The notes below the pieces were generated by a model. It ran no database searches and was not told the origin of the DNA. It worked only from the letters and a program-made list of their open reading frames with translations. A stretch of 64,000 bases of DNA, taken from the NCBI GenBank assembly GCA_021166685.1, contig JAJPEU010000009.1:61055-125054 (forward strand). Direction: 5' to 3'. The DNA is from Sulfurovum sp. (GTDB lineage Bacteria > Campylobacterota > Campylobacteria > Campylobacterales > Sulfurovaceae). The translations under genes were made by a program, and so were the position numbers. This document shows positions 52,337-64,000 of this stretch, piece after piece; the stretch's first letter is position 1, and each line of letters starts with the position of its first letter.

Positions 52337-53263
52337 ATGCCATTTGTCAAAGAAAAATTTATTGTCCCCAAAGAGATGCCTGCTTTCCTTTATATCATGC
52401 GTACATTTGATGCAACCCAAGGCGAAGCCCAAAGACTTATCACAAAAGGAAGACTGCTCATACAAGGCGAGTCTATGTATAGGCCCGGAGAAAAAATAAA
52501 GGGAGAGATAGAAATAGTTTATTTTAAACCGCATTCTCAAAATAATCATCTCCTTTTTCAAAATCAAGATTTTATGATTCTTGAGAAACCTTCTGGTATT
52601 TTAGTTCATCCCAACACCATGTCAACACCCTATTCGATGCTTGATGAAATACGTCATTTAGCCGGAAATGATGCTAATGCTACGCATCGTATTGATATGG
52701 AAACATCAGGATTACTGCTTGCAAGCAAGCACAAAAAGTCCGAAACCTATCTTAAGAATGCATTTGAGGCAAAAACAATACAAAAAAGTTATTTGGCCTG
52801 GGTGGACGGTAAAATTACAGAACCGTTCTCTGTTACCAAGTCCATCAAGGTTAATGACGACTACAGTTTAACAAAACATAAAGTATTAATTGATGATTCA
52901 GGGAGATCTGCGCACACAGATTTTAAGCCGCTTTACTATGATGAAAAATTAGATGCCACAATGGTCGCATGTTATCCTTTGACCGGCAGAACACATCAAA
53001 TCAGAATACATTTGTTTCACGTGAAACATCCAATCTTGGGTGATCCGATCTATGGTCCTACTTTTCATGCCAGTAATGCTTATTTAGATCAAATTCTTAA
53101 TGATGAGGAACGCATGATGCAGATGGGGGCCGGCAGACTATTGCTTCATGCACAAAGTTTGTGTTTTCAATATAATTCAAAATTTTATATAGAGAGCAGA
53201 ACTGACTTTGTTAAGATGAAAAATTTGATTTACGAAAAAGAAAAAAGAAAATTTAACCGATAA
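52337..53263 (+). CDS. RluA family pseudouridine synthase
   Basis: ATHRIDMETSGLLLASKHKKSETYLKNAF; LTGRTHQIRIHLFHVKHPILGDPIYG. Confidence 0.93.
   Translation: MPFVKEKFIVPKEMPAFLYIMRTFDATQGEAQRLITKGRLLIQGESMYRPGEKIKGEIEIVYFKPHSQNNHLLFQNQDFMILEKPSGILVHPNTMSTPYSMLDEIRHLAGNDANATHRIDMETSGLLLASKHKKSETYLKNAFEAKTIQKSYLAWVDGKITEPFSVTKSIKVNDDYSLTKHKVLIDDSGRSAHTDFKPLYYDEKLDATMVACYPLTGRTHQIRIHLFHVKHPILGDPIYGPTFHASNAYLDQILNDEERMMQMGAGRLLLHAQSLCFQYNSKFYIESRTDFVKMKNLIYEKEKRKFNR
53013..53028. promoter_or_regulatory. parS centromere site (ParB binding), perfect TGTTTCACGTGAAACA
   Basis: Exact 16-bp palindrome identical to the B. subtilis-type parS consensus; lies within the RluA gene. Confidence 0.9.
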
Positions 53264-53369
53264 TCCAGTAGCAATCAACAGAAAAACATTCACGTTGCCA
53301 TAAAAAGTAATTTTATTTTCTGTCCCGTAAAACATTTCAGTCAACCGCTGCAATGGATGCAAAATCTTA

Positions 53370-53468
53370 TTATTTATCATTTCTGTTGGCATCATATACA
53401 AACCAGCCAATCCCTATCAATGCGACAACACTAATAAAAATCACTAAAAATTCATCTAAATTTGTCAT
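53370..53468 (-). CDS. Small single-TM protein (32 aa; not in ORF track)
   Basis: [35 protein letters not shown] overlaps rlmN TGA stop (TGATG). Confidence 0.55.
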   Translation of the reverse strand: MTNLDEFLVIFISVVALIGIGWFVYDANRNDK

Positions 53469-54544
53469 CATATCTCTTTTTGATTGAGTTCTTGCTCTCT
53501 AAGTTGACCGCAAGCCGCAGAGATATCTAGGCCTTTAGACTCTCGAATGGTGCACAATAGTCCTCTTTGCGTTAAATACTCTTGAAATTTCAGCATATCC
53601 CCATATTCCGGCCTTTTGAATTCTGTTCCTCCATAAGGATTGAAATAAATTAAATTGACTTTTGCCTTAATGCCGTCAAGCAAACTCAAAAGCTTCTTGG
53701 CTGCTGAAATATCATCATTGACATCTTTAATGACAAGATATTCGAACATAACCCTTTTCCTGTCGTTGACAGGAAAATTTTTAACTGCCGCAATAATGGA
53801 TTTTATATTGTATGCTTTATTGATCGGCATAAGTTTTTGTCTCAGGTCATCATCTACTGCATGCAGCGATATGGCAAGATTGATTCCCAATTCCATTTTT
53901 CCAAGTTTTTCTATCTTGGCACTCAATCCTGAAGTCGAGACTGTTTGACGATGAGGGGCAATGGCCATTCCCTCAGGGTCCGCAAAGATCTTTACTGCTT
54001 TGGCTACGTTTTCCAGATTATCAAGAGGTTCCCCCATGCCCATGTAAACAATGTTGACACGGCGGTTGGCATCAATATCGTTATCTTTTTTAATCATGAG
54101 TAGTTGGGATACAATTTCTCCGGAAGTTAAATTTCGAACAAAACCGCCCTTTGCAGTCAAACAAAAAGCACACCCTACCTTGCACCCTACCTGCGAAGAG
54201 ATACAGACAGTATACCGCTCCTGATGCTTTGTGGAACCGTCCTCATGGTACTCTTTTTCTTTCATCAGAAGAAGTACCGCTTCTATTGTATGCCCATCAT
54301 ACAATTCAAATAGATATTTACGGCTGCCGTCTTTACTGTTTTGAATCATCACGGTTTTTAGCGGAGTAAGTGTATATTCTTTTTCGAGTTTTTCTCGCAT
54401 CTCTTTAGGAATATTTTTCATCGTTTCAAAACTATTTGCATATTTATGATAAATCCAATGATATATCTGTTTTGCCCTAAAAGAAGGTTTAATTATTTCG
54501 CTCAGCTCATCTTTGGTAAAATCTTGTATTATTTGTTTATTCAT
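53468..54544 (-). CDS. rlmN: 23S rRNA (adenine2503-C2)-methyltransferase
   Basis: [35 protein letters not shown] radical-SAM CxxxCxxC. Confidence 0.96.
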
Positions 54545-54599
54545 TTTTTCTTTCTTTGCTCTTTGTCATCTTAAATTTAGTTCAAAACACTATAAATGA

Positions 54600-55127
54600 C
54601 TATTTGAATCTATTTTTTATGTATTTAGTAAGTCTATCCATAGCCTCTTTTTGATTTTTTAAAAAATCCCTATGTGCATTTGCATCACAATAGTTCGTCA
54701 CAATAAATACTCCTCCCGCAGAAATTCCAAACTCCTTGGCTACTTTCAGCACGGCATAAAACTCCATATTCTCAAGATGAATCTGGTGGCCAAGATAATA
54801 TTTTGCCGAATCGGCATCTGTTGTGATATAGTTTGAAGAGTTCACAAATGTTTCACGTGAAACATCTTCTGCACTTGAAACTACATTATCTATGGGTGTG
54901 TAGGAAGTTCCAGTAAAAAAACTGTTTTCAATATTGGTAGCTGTTTTTGATTCTATAATATCAAATATTTTTTTTTCACCGTAACTTCCCGCTGTTCCCA
55001 CAAAAAGTATAAACTCCGGAGGATTCAGCAGACATAGTCTTGTAAGATTAATCGCAACATCTGTCATTCCTATTCCCACAGGTATAGCGAAATCGAAATT
55101 TTCACTGTCTCCGGCACAGATAATCAT
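54600..55127 (-). CDS. Nucleosidase/purine nucleoside phosphorylase family protein
   Basis: FILFVGTAGSYGEKKIFDIIESKTATNIENSFF...LENMEFYAVLKVAKEFGISAGGVFIVTNYCD. Confidence 0.7.
   Translation of the reverse strand: MIICAGDSENFDFAIPVGIGMTDVAINLTRLCLLNPPEFILFVGTAGSYGEKKIFDIIESKTATNIENSFFTGTSYTPIDNVVSSAEDVSRETFVNSSNYITTDADSAKYYLGHQIHLENMEFYAVLKVAKEFGISAGGVFIVTNYCDANAHRDFLKNQKEAMDRLTKYIKNRFK
54849..54864. promoter_or_regulatory. parS centromere site (ParB binding), perfect TGTTTCACGTGAAACA
   Basis: Second exact 16-bp copy, 1836 bp from the first, inside the nucleosidase gene (encodes VSRETF on minus). Confidence 0.9.
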
Positions 55128-55977: not shown

Positions 55978-56850
55978 ATGATTCAGAAGGATTTGGCTAA
56001 TTTTGCAGATAAAAGATTTGGTCAAAATTTTCTTAAAAATGATATCTATATACAAAAAATCATCCAATCGATGCCCAAAGACAGCCTCAGGGTTGCAGAA
56101 ATTGGGCCTGGATTAGGTGATTTAACCAAAGAGCTTATAAAAGCTAAAAATGTCACAGCATTTGAGGTTGACAAAAGATTATGTGAGCATCTGAGCGCGC
56201 TGTTTGAAACACTCATTCATCAAGGGAGTTTCAAATTGGAATGCGGGGATGTGCTTGAGCGTTGGGAGTCAGGAAGCTTGCTGGATGAACCTTATCATCT
56301 GGTGGCAAACCTGCCCTATTATATTGCTACCAATATCATCCTAAAGGCATTAAAAGATATCCATTGTCAGTCAATACTGGTAATGGTACAAAAGGAAGTG
56401 GCGGATAAATTTGCCGCCGGAGTGAAACAGAAGGCTTTTTCTGCCCTCTCTGTTATTGCAGGCAGTGTCGGCAAAGCAAAAGTATGTTTCGAGGTTGAAC
56501 CTGAAGCATTTGTGCCGCCGCCAAAAGTAACTTCCGCGGTACTTTTAATCGAAAAAGAGATGACAAGGGATGACGAAAAGTTTGAAGCGTTTCTCAAAAT
56601 TGCTTTTGGGCAACCGCGCAAAAAACTTATGCGAAATCTCATGTCAGCTTTTCCTCAAGAGATGGTAGAGCAAACTTTTAGCAAATTGGGCTTAGATGCC
56701 CTCTTGCGACCGCATGAGGCTGAGACATCTATATATCATCACTTATATAATGAATTAAAGGATTATTTAGATGGACAACCAAAACAACGAGAACACAAAC
56801 AACAAAAAAGAAAATCAAGAAGGCAGATCACAACGCAGCAGAAGACCTAA
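55978..56850 (+). CDS. rsmA: 16S rRNA dimethyladenosine transferase
   Basis: KRFGQNFLKNDIYIQKIIQSM; VAEIGPGLGDLTKELI; VANLPYYIATNIIL. Confidence 0.95.
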   Translation: MIQKDLANFADKRFGQNFLKNDIYIQKIIQSMPKDSLRVAEIGPGLGDLTKELIKAKNVTAFEVDKRLCEHLSALFETLIHQGSFKLECGDVLERWESGSLLDEPYHLVANLPYYIATNIILKALKDIHCQSILVMVQKEVADKFAAGVKQKAFSALSVIAGSVGKAKVCFEVEPEAFVPPPKVTSAVLLIEKEMTRDDEKFEAFLKIAFGQPRKKLMRNLMSAFPQEMVEQTFSKLGLDALLRPHEAETSIYHHLYNELKDYLDGQPKQREHKQQKRKSRRQITTQQKT

Positions 56851-58870
56851 TCCTCACCGGACAAAAAATCCCAATCAAAATGGACAGGCAGAGCGTGAAA
56901 ATCCAAACAGAAAACCACATCCAAACAGAAAACCCAATCCAAACAAAAATCAACCAAATCTGCAGACAACACAAGAGCAAAACATTAATCAAGATGCCGA
57001 TACCAAGGTAAACCCAAGCGGCCAGAATAAGAAACCGAATTTAAGCAGCAAGCCCAGCCAAAAGACTCATACCCAAAATATCGGCAGTAAAAATAAAAAT
57101 CGCAGAAAAAATCCTACAACAGTAAGTGAAGAGATGCGAGCCTGTATCAATGAAAATACACGTATTCAAAATGCAAGAATGCAACCTTGGAAACAATTGG
57201 ATATCTCGAATCAAGGAAAAATACGCTTTACGCCGCTGGGAGGTCTTGGCGAAATAGGTGGAAACATGGCAGTACTTGAAACAGAGACAACCGCTATTAT
57301 TATTGACGTAGGGATGAGTTTTCCGGATGAAACGATGCACGGCGTAGATATTTTAGTACCTGACTTCTCTTATCTTCATACGATTAAAGACAAAATCAAA
57401 GCTATTGTTATAACACATGGACATGAAGACCATATTGGGGCAATGCCTTATCTTTTTAAAGAGTTAAAATTTCCTGTATACGGAACACCCCTGGCTCTTG
57501 CAATGATTGAAAATAAATTTAATGAACATGGTCTTAAAGCAGATGCAAAATACTTTAACTTTATTACCAAAAGAAAACAATATGAGATAGGTGACCTTAA
57601 AATAGAATGGATCCATATGACGCATTCTATCATAGATTCATGTTCCCTTGCCATTGAAACACCTGCCGGAACCATAGTACATACTGCTGACTTCAAAATA
57701 GACCACACTCCCATCGATGGATACACTGCAGACTTGCATCGTTATGCTTATTATGGAGCAAAAGGCGTTTTATGCCTCTTCTCTGATTCCACCAATTCTC
57801 ATAATCCCGGATTTACAAAAAGCGAATCAGTGGTAGGCAAAACATTTGATACACTCTTTGATCTTGCTACGGGAAGAGTCATAATGTCAACATTTTCTTC
57901 AAATATGCATCGCATCTACCAGGCCATGACAAGAGCGGTTGCTGCGGGAAGAAAAATCTGTGTGATTGGACGCTCCATGGAAAGAAATGTCGAAACAACC
58001 AGGGCTTTAGGCTATATAGATATTGACGATAAACACTTTATTGAGGTGCATGAGGCTCCTAAATACAAAGACAATGAAATACTTATTGTTACTACCGGCT
58101 CTCAGGGAGAAACAATGGCTGCACTTAACCGAATGGCGACTGATGAACATCGACATATCAAACTTAAGCCTTCCGATACTGTTATTATTTCTGCGAGCGC
58201 TATCCCGGGAAATGAAGCCTCTGTTTCCAAGCTCATGAACCTTCTTATGAAGGCAGGAGTGACTGTACGCTATAAAGAGTTTAGCGATATTCACGTTTCA
58301 GGACATGCGGCACAAGAAGAACAAAAACTTGTACTTAGACTTATACAGCCAAAATTCTTTTTGCCTGTGCACGGTGAGTACAATCATATCGCCCAACACG
58401 CAAAAACTGCCGTCAGTTGCGGGGTGGAGGAGAGAAATATTCTCTTAATGAGTGATGGAGATCAAGTTGAAATCACACCAAAATATATCAAAAAAGTAAA
58501 AACAGTCAAAAATGGAAAAACATATATTGACAATCAAAACAATATGAAGATTGAAAATGATGTGGTTCTTGACAGACAAAAGCTAGCCGAAGACGGTATT
58601 ATCAATATCGTTGCGCAGGTCTCCCAGGAAAATCAAAAAGTAGTTGGAAAACCGATTGTTACTTCCCACGGACTTGTGGCAGACAAAGATGACAAAAAAT
58701 TTGCCAAAGAGATTGAACTGCTTCTTGAGACCATGTTGCTCAATATGAAGCCTGAAGCATTAAAAGATCACAGAAATATTGAAAATGAAATTAGAACCAG
58801 CGTTAGAAAACATGTAGTGCGCACAAAAAAAAGATATCCTCTTATTATTCCAACAATTTTTATTATCTAG
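56771..58870 (+). CDS. rnj: Ribonuclease J with long disordered basic N-terminal extension
   Basis: RFTPLGGLGEIGGNMAVLE; ITHGHEDHIGAMPYL; SDSTNSHNPGFT; FLPVHGEYNHIAQHA. Confidence 0.95.
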   Translation: MDNQNNENTNNKKENQEGRSQRSRRPNPHRTKNPNQNGQAERENPNRKPHPNRKPNPNKNQPNLQTTQEQNINQDADTKVNPSGQNKKPNLSSKPSQKTHTQNIGSKNKNRRKNPTTVSEEMRACINENTRIQNARMQPWKQLDISNQGKIRFTPLGGLGEIGGNMAVLETETTAIIIDVGMSFPDETMHGVDILVPDFSYLHTIKDKIKAIVITHGHEDHIGAMPYLFKELKFPVYGTPLALAMIENKFNEHGLKADAKYFNFITKRKQYEIGDLKIEWIHMTHSIIDSCSLAIETPAGTIVHTADFKIDHTPIDGYTADLHRYAYYGAKGVLCLFSDSTNSHNPGFTKSESVVGKTFDTLFDLATGRVIMSTFSSNMHRIYQAMTRAVAAGRKICVIGRSMERNVETTRALGYIDIDDKHFIEVHEAPKYKDNEILIVTTGSQGETMAALNRMATDEHRHIKLKPSDTVIISASAIPGNEASVSKLMNLLMKAGVTVRYKEFSDIHVSGHAAQEEQKLVLRLIQPKFFLPVHGEYNHIAQHAKTAVSCGVEERNILLMSDGDQVEITPKYIKKVKTVKNGKTYIDNQNNMKIENDVVLDRQKLAEDGIINIVAQVSQENQKVVGKPIVTSHGLVADKDDKKFAKEIELLLETMLLNMKPEALKDHRNIENEIRTSVRKHVVRTKKRYPLIIPTIFII

Positions 58871-58985
58871 TGCTAATCGATCCGCCCCCCTATTCAAAAG
58901 GACGGGCACCCTCTCTTCTTAGACCTTTCTTCTCTATTTAGAGTTACCTTATGCTATAATTTTTCATTCAAACAAAGGCTACACA

Positions 58986-59954
58986 ATGGACCTCATAAAA
59001 ACCGCAAAAGAAACATTTTACACTGAAGCACAAGCGCTGGAACGGGCTGCTGCACGGCTTGACAAAAATTTTTTAGATGCTATTGATCTCATTATGCGAA
59101 CCAAAGGGAAACTTATTATTACCGGCGTAGGAAAATCTGGTTTAGTGGGTGCAAAAATGGCTGCCACTTTTGCAAGTACAGGTACATCCAGCTTCTTTTT
59201 ACATCCCACTGAAGCACTGCACGGCGACCTAGGAATGATAAGCAAAGGGGATACGTTGCTTGCCATAAGCAGCAGCGGAGAGAGCGAAGAGCTTACCAAA
59301 ATTCTTCCGCACATCAAACGTTTTGAAATTCCGCTTATAGGTTTGACCGGTAATCCAAAATCTTCACTTGCATACTATTCAGATGTATTTTTGGATATCT
59401 CTGTAGAAAAAGAGGCCTGCCCTCTGAATGTTGCACCTACTGCCTCCACTACGCTGACCATGGCCATAGGAGATGCTCTGGCTGTGGCACTGATGGAAAA
59501 AAGAGGCTTTAGGCACGAAGATTTTGCTTCTTTTCATCCCGGCGGCACATTGGGCAAAAAACTCTTTATCAAAATTAAAGATCTCATGCGTACAGAAGCA
59601 CTACCCATTATTCAGGATGACACAACACTTAAAGAAGCTATCGTTACCATGAGCGAAGGAAAACTTGGTACCGTACTTATCGTCGATAAAAAAGGAAAAT
59701 TCTGCGCGCTGCTTAGTGACGGAGATTTGCGAAGAGCATTGATGAAAGAATCTTTTAGCTTGGAACATCTTGCCATAGACTATGCTACACGGAACCCAAA
59801 AAGTTATCATGATACCCAATTGCTTGCAAGTCAAGCGCTTGAAATCATAGAAAATGAACGCATACAACTGCTGCCCATTACAAATAAATCAGGAAAAATC
59901 ATAGGTGTACTACACATCCATGATCTAATCAATGCCGGCATTAAAAGCAAATAG
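58986..59954 (+). CDS. kdsD: Arabinose-5-phosphate isomerase (KdsD/KpsF/GutQ)
   Basis: ITGVGKSGLVGAKMAATFASTGTSSFFLHPTEALHGDLGMI plus two CBS domains. Confidence 0.93.
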   Translation: MDLIKTAKETFYTEAQALERAAARLDKNFLDAIDLIMRTKGKLIITGVGKSGLVGAKMAATFASTGTSSFFLHPTEALHGDLGMISKGDTLLAISSSGESEELTKILPHIKRFEIPLIGLTGNPKSSLAYYSDVFLDISVEKEACPLNVAPTASTTLTMAIGDALAVALMEKRGFRHEDFASFHPGGTLGKKLFIKIKDLMRTEALPIIQDDTTLKEAIVTMSEGKLGTVLIVDKKGKFCALLSDGDLRRALMKESFSLEHLAIDYATRNPKSYHDTQLLASQALEIIENERIQLLPITNKSGKIIGVLHIHDLINAGIKSK

Positions 59955-59960
59955 AGGACA

Positions 59961-60764
59961 ATGCACATGAGACTCAACAAATACATTTCACATCATACCA
60001 AATATTCACGCCGCGATGCAGACAAACTCATAGAGGCAGGCGAAGTCACGCTCGGCAAAGTGGTTCTTAAAAGTTTTAGTTATGAGGTGAAAGAAGAAGA
60101 TCGCATTTATATTAAGGGCAAACCTATCAAGGTACGTACCGAACTTACGATCATTGCATACAATAAACCCAAAGGAGTACTTGTCACCAAAAAAGATGAC
60201 AGGGGGAGAACGACTATCTATCACAAACTTTCTGGGAAATTTAGACACTTTATTCCGGTGGGAAGGCTTGACTACGCCTCAGAAGGACTTTTGCTTTTAA
60301 CGGACACTCCGGAAGTGGCGCAAGCACTCATGGAGAGTAATCTGGACAGAACCTATAACATCAAAATAGATAAACCCGTAACCGCCGAAATGATGGAAGC
60401 GATGGAAAAAGGACTTGTTTTGGATGATGCAAGAGCAGGAGCACATAGCAAAAGCGCTATTACCAGTATGGAGTTTGCCCCTTTTGCGCATTATGAAATT
60501 CGTCATGCCGGGCAAAACTTCACCAAACTTCGGGTAACCATCTCTGAGGGCAAAAATCGTGAACTTAGACGTTTTTTTGCCCATTTTGATGCCGCGGTGC
60601 TGGATCTTAAACGTGTCGCTTTTGGAGGAATAGAGCTAAACAATCTTCCCACAAACAAAACACGTTTTTTTACACGAAAAGAGTATGACGATGTTCATAA
60701 ATTTATGAAAAGAATCAAACAAAATCAAGCCAAAGACAAAGATAAACACAAAAACAAAGGATAG
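59961..60764 (+). CDS. RsuA/RluB family pseudouridine synthase
   Basis: MRLNKYISHHTKYSRRDADKLIEAGEV; PVGRLDYASEGLLLLTD; EGKNRELRRFFAHF. Confidence 0.93.
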   Translation: MHMRLNKYISHHTKYSRRDADKLIEAGEVTLGKVVLKSFSYEVKEEDRIYIKGKPIKVRTELTIIAYNKPKGVLVTKKDDRGRTTIYHKLSGKFRHFIPVGRLDYASEGLLLLTDTPEVAQALMESNLDRTYNIKIDKPVTAEMMEAMEKGLVLDDARAGAHSKSAITSMEFAPFAHYEIRHAGQNFTKLRVTISEGKNRELRRFFAHFDAAVLDLKRVAFGGIELNNLPTNKTRFFTRKEYDDVHKFMKRIKQNQAKDKDKHKNKG

Positions 60765-60767
60765 GCG

Positions 60768-61955
60768 TTGGCAAATTTTGCGCTCAAATATCGCCCTAAA
60801 ACATTAGATGAGCTTATGGGGCAGCCACATCTGGTGCATCCCTCCTCGCCTTTAAGAAAGTTAATTGAAGCCGATGCGCTTTTGCACACTTTTTTTTATG
60901 GGCCTCCGGGATCCGGAAAAACAACACTTGCGCGCGCAATTGCATCACAACTTGATAAACCATTTTATGAGATGAATGCGACGACCCTCAAAATAGAACA
61001 ATTACGTCAAATCTTCAAAGAATATGCCTATGCATTGCAAAAACCGCTTATTTTTATTGATGAAGTACACCGCTTAAGTAAAAATCAACAAGAGGTGCTT
61101 TTGCCTTTTATGGAAAACCAAGCTGCTCTCATTATCGGGGCATCCACCGAAAACCCTTATTATTCACTCACTGCTGCAATGCGTTCACGTTCTCATCTCA
61201 TTGAACTCAAGCCCCTTGGCACAAAAGATATGGCAATTTATCTTGAGAAAATACTAAATGCAGAAAATATTTCAATAGAAGAAGAAGCAAAAAAATATTT
61301 AATTTTTTCAAGCGGAGGAGATGCGAGGGCCATGCTAAATCTACTTGAAACTGCAAGCATAATTGAGGGGCCGATCACACTTCATACACTCAAACAAATA
61401 AGATCTCATGCCGTACAGGCAGGAAGCTCAGAAAGCGAAAGTCACTACGAACTAACATCAGCCATGATAAAAAGTATACGCGGAAGTGATATTGATGCGG
61501 CTATTTATTATCTATCCAGGTTGGTGGACGGGGGGGAGCCTGCAGAATTTATTGCTAGACGTTTAGCTATCCTGGCCAGTGAAGATATAGGCAACGCAAA
61601 TCCCCACGCACTCAATCTCTCCAGTTCTGTGCTGAACATTGTTAAGCATATCGGTTATCCTGAGGCAAGAATAACACTTTCCCAATTGGTTATCTACCTT
61701 GCCTCTTCCCCTAAGTCAAATGCGGCCTATTTGGCCATAAATCATGCCTTGCAAACCCTAAAAGAAGAGGAAGCCGCCCCCGTCCCCCCTCACATCAAAA
61801 CACATGCGAAAGCATATCTCTATCCTCATGATTTTGGAGGATGGATAAAACAAGATTACCTCACAAAACCCAAAAAGTTTTACCAAACAAAACAGATAGG
61901 TTTTGAAAAAACTCTTTTTGAGTGGCATGAAAAAATAACATCCCAAAAGAAATAA
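60768..61955 (+). CDS. rarA: Replication-associated recombination protein A (AAA ATPase)
   Basis: LMGQPHLVHPSSPLRKLIEADALLHTFFYGPPGSGKTTLARAIA; TTG start. Confidence 0.93.
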   Translation: MANFALKYRPKTLDELMGQPHLVHPSSPLRKLIEADALLHTFFYGPPGSGKTTLARAIASQLDKPFYEMNATTLKIEQLRQIFKEYAYALQKPLIFIDEVHRLSKNQQEVLLPFMENQAALIIGASTENPYYSLTAAMRSRSHLIELKPLGTKDMAIYLEKILNAENISIEEEAKKYLIFSSGGDARAMLNLLETASIIEGPITLHTLKQIRSHAVQAGSSESESHYELTSAMIKSIRGSDIDAAIYYLSRLVDGGEPAEFIARRLAILASEDIGNANPHALNLSSSVLNIVKHIGYPEARITLSQLVIYLASSPKSNAAYLAINHALQTLKEEEAAPVPPHIKTHAKAYLYPHDFGGWIKQDYLTKPKKFYQTKQIGFEKTLFEWHEKITSQKK

Positions 61956-62017
61956 CACAATTTTGACACTTTTCTGTGCTATAATTAATTAGTTATATAA
62001 TTGAATTAGGAGAATGA

Positions 62018-62296
62018 ATGAAGCTCAAAATAGTAAAATTTGTGATTGCAAGTGGTGCATGTATCATTGGATTGAGTGGTTGCACAGGGCAAGAAGCTGT
62101 TCCTAGTAATGCAACCCAAACAGGTGCAGTGACAGGTGCGTTAGCAGGTTCTGTAATCGGGTACAATACTTCAGGACACAACAAGGGCCAACGTGCTGTT
62201 ATAGGTGGTCTTCTTGGTGCAGCTGCCGGCGGTGCAATTGGTCATGCAATAGACAATCAAAATCCAGAACCTGTAGAAACTGGCGGCTGGGAATAA
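62018..62296 (+). CDS. Glycine-zipper lipoprotein
   Basis: IIGLSGCTGQEAVPSNATQTGAVTGALAGSVIGYNTSGHNKGQRAVIGGLLGAAAGGAIGHAID. Confidence 0.8.
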   Translation: MKLKIVKFVIASGACIIGLSGCTGQEAVPSNATQTGAVTGALAGSVIGYNTSGHNKGQRAVIGGLLGAAAGGAIGHAIDNQNPEPVETGGWE

Positions 62297-62330
62297 CTTT
62301 TAATACAAAATATACAAAAAGGAGAGTGAT

Positions 62331-63044
62331 ATGAAATTATTTAAACCTGTGATTGCCTCTACAGTAGTGGCATTCATGCTAAGCGGATGCTATAACGAAC
62401 CTGGATTAACACAAGATACAAGTTATGATCGAACCAAAACAGGTGCTGCAACCGGTGCATTGGCAGGCGCACTGATAGGATACAATACTAAAGGGCACGA
62501 TAAGGGACAAAGAGCTCTTATTGGAGGTCTTTTGGGTGCTGCAGCAGGCGGCGCAATCGGATACAGTTTAGACCAGCAAGCTAATGAAATAGCTCGTGCG
62601 CTAGGAACAGGGGTGGACAACGATCCTCTTGCTGTACTTGACCCGCAAAGAGACATTATCGTTTCAAAAACAAATAATTATGTAAAAATCATGTTTAGGG
62701 ACCGCATGATGTTTGCCACTGATTCGTCAAATCTGCAGTCAAATGCACGCTATAAAGTAAATAAGGTAGCACAGCTCTTGCAAAATTATCCGCAAACCGT
62801 AGTGGGAGTCGCAGGCTTTACCGATAATCAAGGAAGCTATGAGTACAACCAAGGACTTTCAGAAAGGAGAGCAGCTTCTGTAGCTAATATACTTGCTGTA
62901 AACGGCCGTCCTTTAACTAAAGGGTGTTCCTACAATAAAGCTATAGCTCCGAATGATACTGCAGAAAATAGGGCTCTTAACAGACGTGTAGAGGTGTATT
63001 TGTATGCAGATAGAAATAAGATGAGCGATCCCTGCTACCAATAG
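62331..63044 (+). CDS. Glycine-zipper plus OmpA-like peptidoglycan-binding lipoprotein
   Basis: GALAGALIGYNTKGHDKGQRALIGGLLGAAAGGAIGYSLD; VVGVAGFTDNQGSYEYNQGLSERRAASVANIL. Confidence 0.9.
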   Translation: MKLFKPVIASTVVAFMLSGCYNEPGLTQDTSYDRTKTGAATGALAGALIGYNTKGHDKGQRALIGGLLGAAAGGAIGYSLDQQANEIARALGTGVDNDPLAVLDPQRDIIVSKTNNYVKIMFRDRMMFATDSSNLQSNARYKVNKVAQLLQNYPQTVVGVAGFTDNQGSYEYNQGLSERRAASVANILAVNGRPLTKGCSYNKAIAPNDTAENRALNRRVEVYLYADRNKMSDPCYQ

Positions 63045-63068
63045 CATAAAGATCTAATATAAATAAAA

Positions 63069-63500
63069 TTACTTCAACGAGTCAAGCTTTTGCTTGGCTT
63101 GTTCTGCATTTAATGTGCCTTCAAAAAATTGGCCTTCTGTTTCATTGATCACATTTAAAAGTTTTGTCTGAAACAACTCACCCCTGATTCTTTCGTTCGC
63201 AAAATGTTTCATTTCACCAAAATCAGGGAAAAGCTTTAGAAATTCTTTTTTTAGTTTGCTGTGTTGCCATGCTTCAATTTGTGTTTTTTCATCAATATCT
63301 GACACTATTAAAATATCTCTGCCTACGCTATCAACACTTTGATATTTATCGTACTTATGTTCCAATATGTAATCATTATTACTAAATTTATCATCTTCTT
63401 TTTGAATATCACCAACGAAACTGGTTATAAAATAAATAAACCCTATCCCCACAATCACAAACAAAATAAATGTCTTATCCATCTTTAAATCCTCAAACAA
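63069..63500 (-). CDS. Hypothetical membrane-anchored protein
   Basis: N-terminal TM MDKTFILFVIVGIGFIYFITSFV; no family recognised. Confidence 0.5.
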   Translation of the reverse strand: MFEDLKMDKTFILFVIVGIGFIYFITSFVGDIQKEDDKFSNNDYILEHKYDKYQSVDSVGRDILIVSDIDEKTQIEAWQHSKLKKEFLKLFPDFGEMKHFANERIRGELFQTKLLNVINETEGQFFEGTLNAEQAKQKLDSLK

Positions 63501-63591
63501 ATTGGAATAAATATAAAAAATATTATACTATAAATTCGTAATTAGAATTGATGAAGTGATAATGAAAAAATTGAAGTTGAATGAAAAGAAG

Positions 63592-63614
63592 TGGTGCGGA
63601 TGAGAGGACTCGAA
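63592..63614 (-). repeat. tRNA 3'-end fragment (att-like remnant, probable tRNA-Leu)
   Basis: Minus strand TTCGAGTCCTCTCATCCGCACCA = T-loop, 3' T-stem, acceptor CATCCGC, A, CCA; adjacent sequence cannot form the 5' half. Confidence 0.75.
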
Positions 63615-63722
63615 CTGGATAACTTAAGATTTTTTACAATTCATTACAATATAAAACCACCCGAAAAATAGGGCTCTTTAATCTTTTTGAAACTTTTTCA
63701 ATGTATAATAATTCCATGAGTC

Positions 63723-63758
63723 GGTATCCCCCAAGGTATCCCCCAAAGTATCCCCCAA
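63723..63758. repeat. Three tandem 12-bp repeats RGTATCCCCCAA
   Basis: ggtatcccccaa ggtatcccccaa agtatcccccaa. Confidence 0.9.
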
Positions 63759-63783
63759 AATTCTAAGAATATGAGAGGCAAAA

Positions 63784-64000
63784 ATGGCCATTGATCTAAA
63801 AGACTTCAAACAGACAAAATACCCAGGTCTTTATAAAAGTATTGCCAAAGACAAAACAAAGGGATATAAATATCTGATGTGGTCAAAAATAGACGGCAAA
63901 TTACATAAAAAGATTATTGGTTGCAGCGAAACAGACAAGCTAACGGACAGACAAGCAAAAGACAAGCTCGAAAAGATCAAAGCAGACATAGAAGCAGGCT
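63784..64000 (+). CDS. Tyrosine-recombinase/phage integrase N-terminal part (truncated by window end)
   Basis: MAIDLKDFKQTKYPGLYKSIAKDKTKGYKYLMWSKIDGKLHKKIIGCSETDKLTDRQAKDKLEKIKADIEAG, typical integrase arm-binding domain; next to tRNA fragment. Confidence 0.75.
   Translation, partial: MAIDLKDFKQTKYPGLYKSIAKDKTKGYKYLMWSKIDGKLHKKIIGCSETDKLTDRQAKDKLEKIKADIEAG

Follow-up and report, generated by a model that had tools for sequence, protein, structure and literature searches.

We find that two exact copies of a 16-nucleotide palindrome, TGTTTCACGTGAAACA, carried by two unrelated genes of a 64,000-nucleotide stretch of DNA (the window) from a Sulfurovum-like bacterium of the order Campylobacterales, are almost certainly parS, the centromere of its chromosome. 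All features open to a test at the sequence level are those of an ordinary ParB-parS centromere; the unusual part is its long residence in two genes and the protein constraint that results. The original prediction that the sites mark a chromosome segregation centre is supported by a parA-parB operon, nearness to the replication origin and codon constraint at both sites. What appears to be new is an intragenic parS pair conserved across the order: we found no earlier report of this arrangement in the literature on parS in Epsilonproteobacteria, Sulfurovum and Campylobacter, where subscription papers are thinly covered.

Table 1. Coordinates of the parS sites, their host genes and the flanking region in the window
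Feature	Position	Strand	Basis or content
parS site 1, TGTTTCACGTGAAACA	53013..53028	.	codons for L-FHVK-H, end of RluA helix
parS site 2, TGTTTCACGTGAAACA	54849..54864	.	codons for VSRET, length-variable loop of nucleosidase-like protein
RluA-family pseudouridine synthase gene, carries site 1	52337..53263	+	ORF; PF00849 96 bits
RlmN-like radical-SAM gene between both sites	53468..54544	-	ORF; named from sequence alone
Nucleosidase / phosphorylase-superfamily gene, 175 aa, carries site 2	54600..55127	-	ORF; PF01048 43 bits
Flank: ksgA, RNase J-like, kdsD-like, rluB-like, rarA-like, others	55978..64000	+	synteny with G121 contig 24

A pattern search of the window returns both copies, each a full match to the parS consensus, exactly at the positions first given, and no third site within three mismatches is present there (shuffled sequences average 0.37). 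The genome-wide count that had been suggested as a check, made on an assembly of 1.8 Mb in 21 contigs that is 94% complete, gives only this pair, 1.8 kb apart, at up to two mismatches. The reversed control pattern yields two matches in the whole genome at up to two mismatches and none at up to one, where the parS pattern yields two. The reading frames first proposed for the sites, LFHVKH on the plus strand and VSRETF on the minus strand, are right, as is the assignment of the host genes to the RluA and nucleosidase families (profile scores in Table 1).

The match of the RluA-family protein to the subfamily model TIGR00005 falls under the cut-off; its structure model has a mean pLDDT of 91.5, and the residues encoded by parS include the end of helix 219-228. 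An orthologue of the nucleosidase is present in 146 of 150 genomes of the order, and its relatives are found in Sulfurovum and other Campylobacterota genomes, the nearest at 93% and 87% identity. The fold model of this protein has pLDDT below 50 at residues 63-100, covering the site-bearing segment and unusable there, and we place site 2 in a loop because length varies at this point of the nucleosidase alignment. Insertions of ~30 residues are seen at this loop in two nucleosidase genes (L133 and L134, of genomes G121 and G140), and in G140 the site is retained within the inserted stretch. The gene order purB-rluA-rlmN-nuc-hisF-ksgA is kept in many relatives.

The predicted nearness to oriC is borne out by synteny. 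In this assembly dnaA lies on contig 16, where GC skew switches sign at dnaA, and the contig that carries the sites stops at the window end. In the congener G121 the dnaA and parS genes share one contig, on which the flank listed in Table 1 faces dnaA and the gene order sets the end of contig 16 against the end of the window. The distance between dnaA and parS is thus ~27 kb, an estimate that rests on synteny with one congener, our own assembly being in 21 contigs. The 21 relatives with parS and dnaA on one contig agree, the nearest parS lying 2-84 kb from dnaA (median 43 kb). In the same 21 relatives parB is separated from dnaA by a median of 24% of the genome, typically hundreds of kb.

A ParB, whose absence would have told against the prediction, is encoded in the genome, with parS-type recognition residues, together with a ParA. 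Their genes sit outside the window, next to each other on contig 5, with ATP-synthase genes to one side and a biotin-ligase-like gene to the other. The ParB has ParB_N and HTH_ParB domains, and its CTPase and recognition motifs include GERRxR, ENIQR and the KSR..N and GH residues of parS-type ParB; the closest solved structure is Helicobacter pylori ParB/Spo0J (4umk, 243 bits). These features bear on the idea that the 16-mers serve Noc or some other regulator and are not parS, a reading suggested by the NCBIfam models, among which the ParB scores best against Noc, at 219 bits, under the cut-off of 315. The sequence is canonical parS, however, and at the two contact positions that tell parS-binding ParB from Noc the protein carries R and G, in keeping with the reported specificity residues of parS-type ParB, where Noc has Q and R (PMC7383237); this contact-residue comparison covers 18 of 20 proteins (G056 and G123 left out). 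Only two sites exist, moreover, and both lie in the region of the origin, unlike Noc sites, which are scattered over the chromosome (PMC7383237); we consider a Noc or other regulator very improbable. None of 60 genomes of the order has an SMC protein above the SMC_prok_B cut-off, a search of that family only, in which 10 of 14 controls pass, and SMC loading is therefore an unlikely role for parS here. This genome also encodes another ParA/ParB-like pair (L004:421-1947; contig C15:122202-123728), which includes a KorB-like domain and may derive from a plasmid or an integrated element.

Codon use at the sites, which had been singled out as a check, is constrained across species: excess codon conservation tops at the site in both genes, ranking first of 299 codon windows in rluA and first of 171 in the nucleosidase gene, as maintenance by selection at the DNA level would predict. 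The valine of FHVKH is GTG in 50 of 50 peptides (10.5 expected), the exact site is spelled by 49 of these 50 (0.7 expected), and the exact site codons are found in 44 of 58 VSRET peptides (0.2 expected), the expected numbers serving for orientation rather than as a formal test, as related sequences are not independent. In an order-wide set free of motif-selected loci, GTG is used in 35 of 35 and the exact site is found in 26. The 16-mers could in principle be by-products of conserved protein motifs, FHVKH and VSRET, with no function at the DNA level, and both peptides are indeed widespread among orthologues. That account is extremely improbable, as the choice of synonymous codons is fixed to a degree that codon usage comes nowhere near explaining, and one palindrome is shared by two genes that are unrelated and read it in different frames; nor do the enzymes need these peptides, since orthologues without parS have other residues. 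All 20 rluA orthologues from genomes without a site in rluA encode ordinary residues at this position (HSIGH, YSIGH, AHIGH, AYLGM), like the AHITH of E. coli RluD, and the residues therefore appear to follow the centromere and not the enzyme. It is also highly unlikely that the pair is true parS retained by inheritance under little current selection, with the working centromere elsewhere. Some lineages have moved or lost their sites, as with the kdsD-like gene of family f7, but no other parS within two mismatches is found in this genome, and silent sites would have decayed over the divergence seen, which in RluA reaches ~40% identity. Both sites can be read in 39 genomes, of which 18 have an identical pair and 9 have the same non-consensus variant at either site (2.8 expected on shuffling, p = 0.0001), a result only suggestive of co-variation between the two sites, with kinship not controlled.

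A parS within one mismatch is present in 118 of 150 genomes of the order, usually as a pair 1.5-5 kb apart, and in 54 of 60 genomes of a family sample; a phylum-wide draw yielded members of the same order alone, and the scope of this conservation is thus Campylobacterales. Neighbourhoods fetched via the nucleosidase show sites in both genes in many families, read in frame 1 in rluA and in frame 2 in the nucleosidase gene. A second set of 80 loci, chosen by nucleosidase similarity alone with sites called within two mismatches, partly overlaps the first, some public records being the same genomes; here 66 of the 80 nucleosidase genes have the site, as do all 57 full-length rluA genes, in the same frames, and 117 of its 137 sites within one mismatch fall in one or other gene. 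In family f7 the sites are placed differently, in and near a kdsD-like gene. A convincing ParB is missing from 8 of 32 parS-less genomes and from none of 18 parS-bearing genomes (Fisher p = 0.04), in a sample picked by parS status at one mismatch or fewer. About 24 of those 32 still have ParB, and some ParB-bearing genomes of this kind hold two-mismatch versions in the same codons. Three genomes of genus g37, family f9 (G042, G055 and G091; loci L179, L180 and L181) have an rluA site eroded to TGTTTTATGTGAAACA in the same codons and a nucleosidase site decayed to three-mismatch versions; ParB is present in all three, with contact residues unchanged. Four genomes of family f22 (G036, G049, G062 and G075), three of them many-contig drafts, give no Bac_DnaA match (0/4), ParB as weak fragments only and no parS, and the DnaA C-terminal domain is not found in G036; joint loss of DnaA and ParABS is possible in this family. 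Genome G159 (family f1, genus g66), although 99% complete, likewise matches neither DnaA nor ParB, which may be an assembly gap.

Established ParB biology suggests how the pair would work. ParB, made from the parAB operon elsewhere on the chromosome, would bind both sites, load as a CTP clamp and slide into flanking DNA, and ParA would then move the ParB complex so as to part the freshly replicated origin regions. Since both sites are embedded in genes, selection for ParB binding would fix silent codons and several amino acids in both enzymes. We lean slightly towards a history in which an early ancestor of much of the Campylobacterales had parS fixed in both rluA and the nucleosidase gene. 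From then on the sites would have been an overlapping code, forcing four residues on a conserved RNA-modifying enzyme; both sites would shift together to the same variant as ParB preference drifts, and ordinary residues would return once the centromere moves. Such a natural case of a centromere written in coding DNA across an order would make the cost to the enzymes measurable. It also marks the predicted place of ParB loading in an order to which Helicobacter- and Campylobacter-type bacteria belong, and, with parAB far from parS and canonical SMC not found, a ParABS-only model of segregation becomes testable.

The chromosomal ParABS systems of Bacillus, Caulobacter and Pseudomonas (consensus TGTTTCACGTGAAACA) have the same palindrome, an origin-proximal cluster and a parA-parB operon; in contrast to these, parAB in the relatives studied here is far from both parS and dnaA, and no SMC passes the threshold in the 60 genomes. 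Within the order, H. pylori HpParA/HpParB (Soj/Spo0J) with parS offers the closest solved ParB (PDB 4umk; PMC11229316). The published H. pylori parS oligonucleotide, TGTTCCACGTGAAACA (PMC11229316), is the variant that three genomes of family f19 carry in rluA and in the nucleosidase gene alike. Unlike the window genome, the H. pylori-like genome G092 has its RluA orthologue elsewhere, without parS; its single listed site lies 10.6 kb from dnaA. Intragenic parS is known from Pseudomonas aeruginosa PAO1, where 9 of 10 sites are predicted within coding sequences (PMC4368675); what differs here is that the same two gene positions are kept across many families, with the constraint on codons and residues measured.
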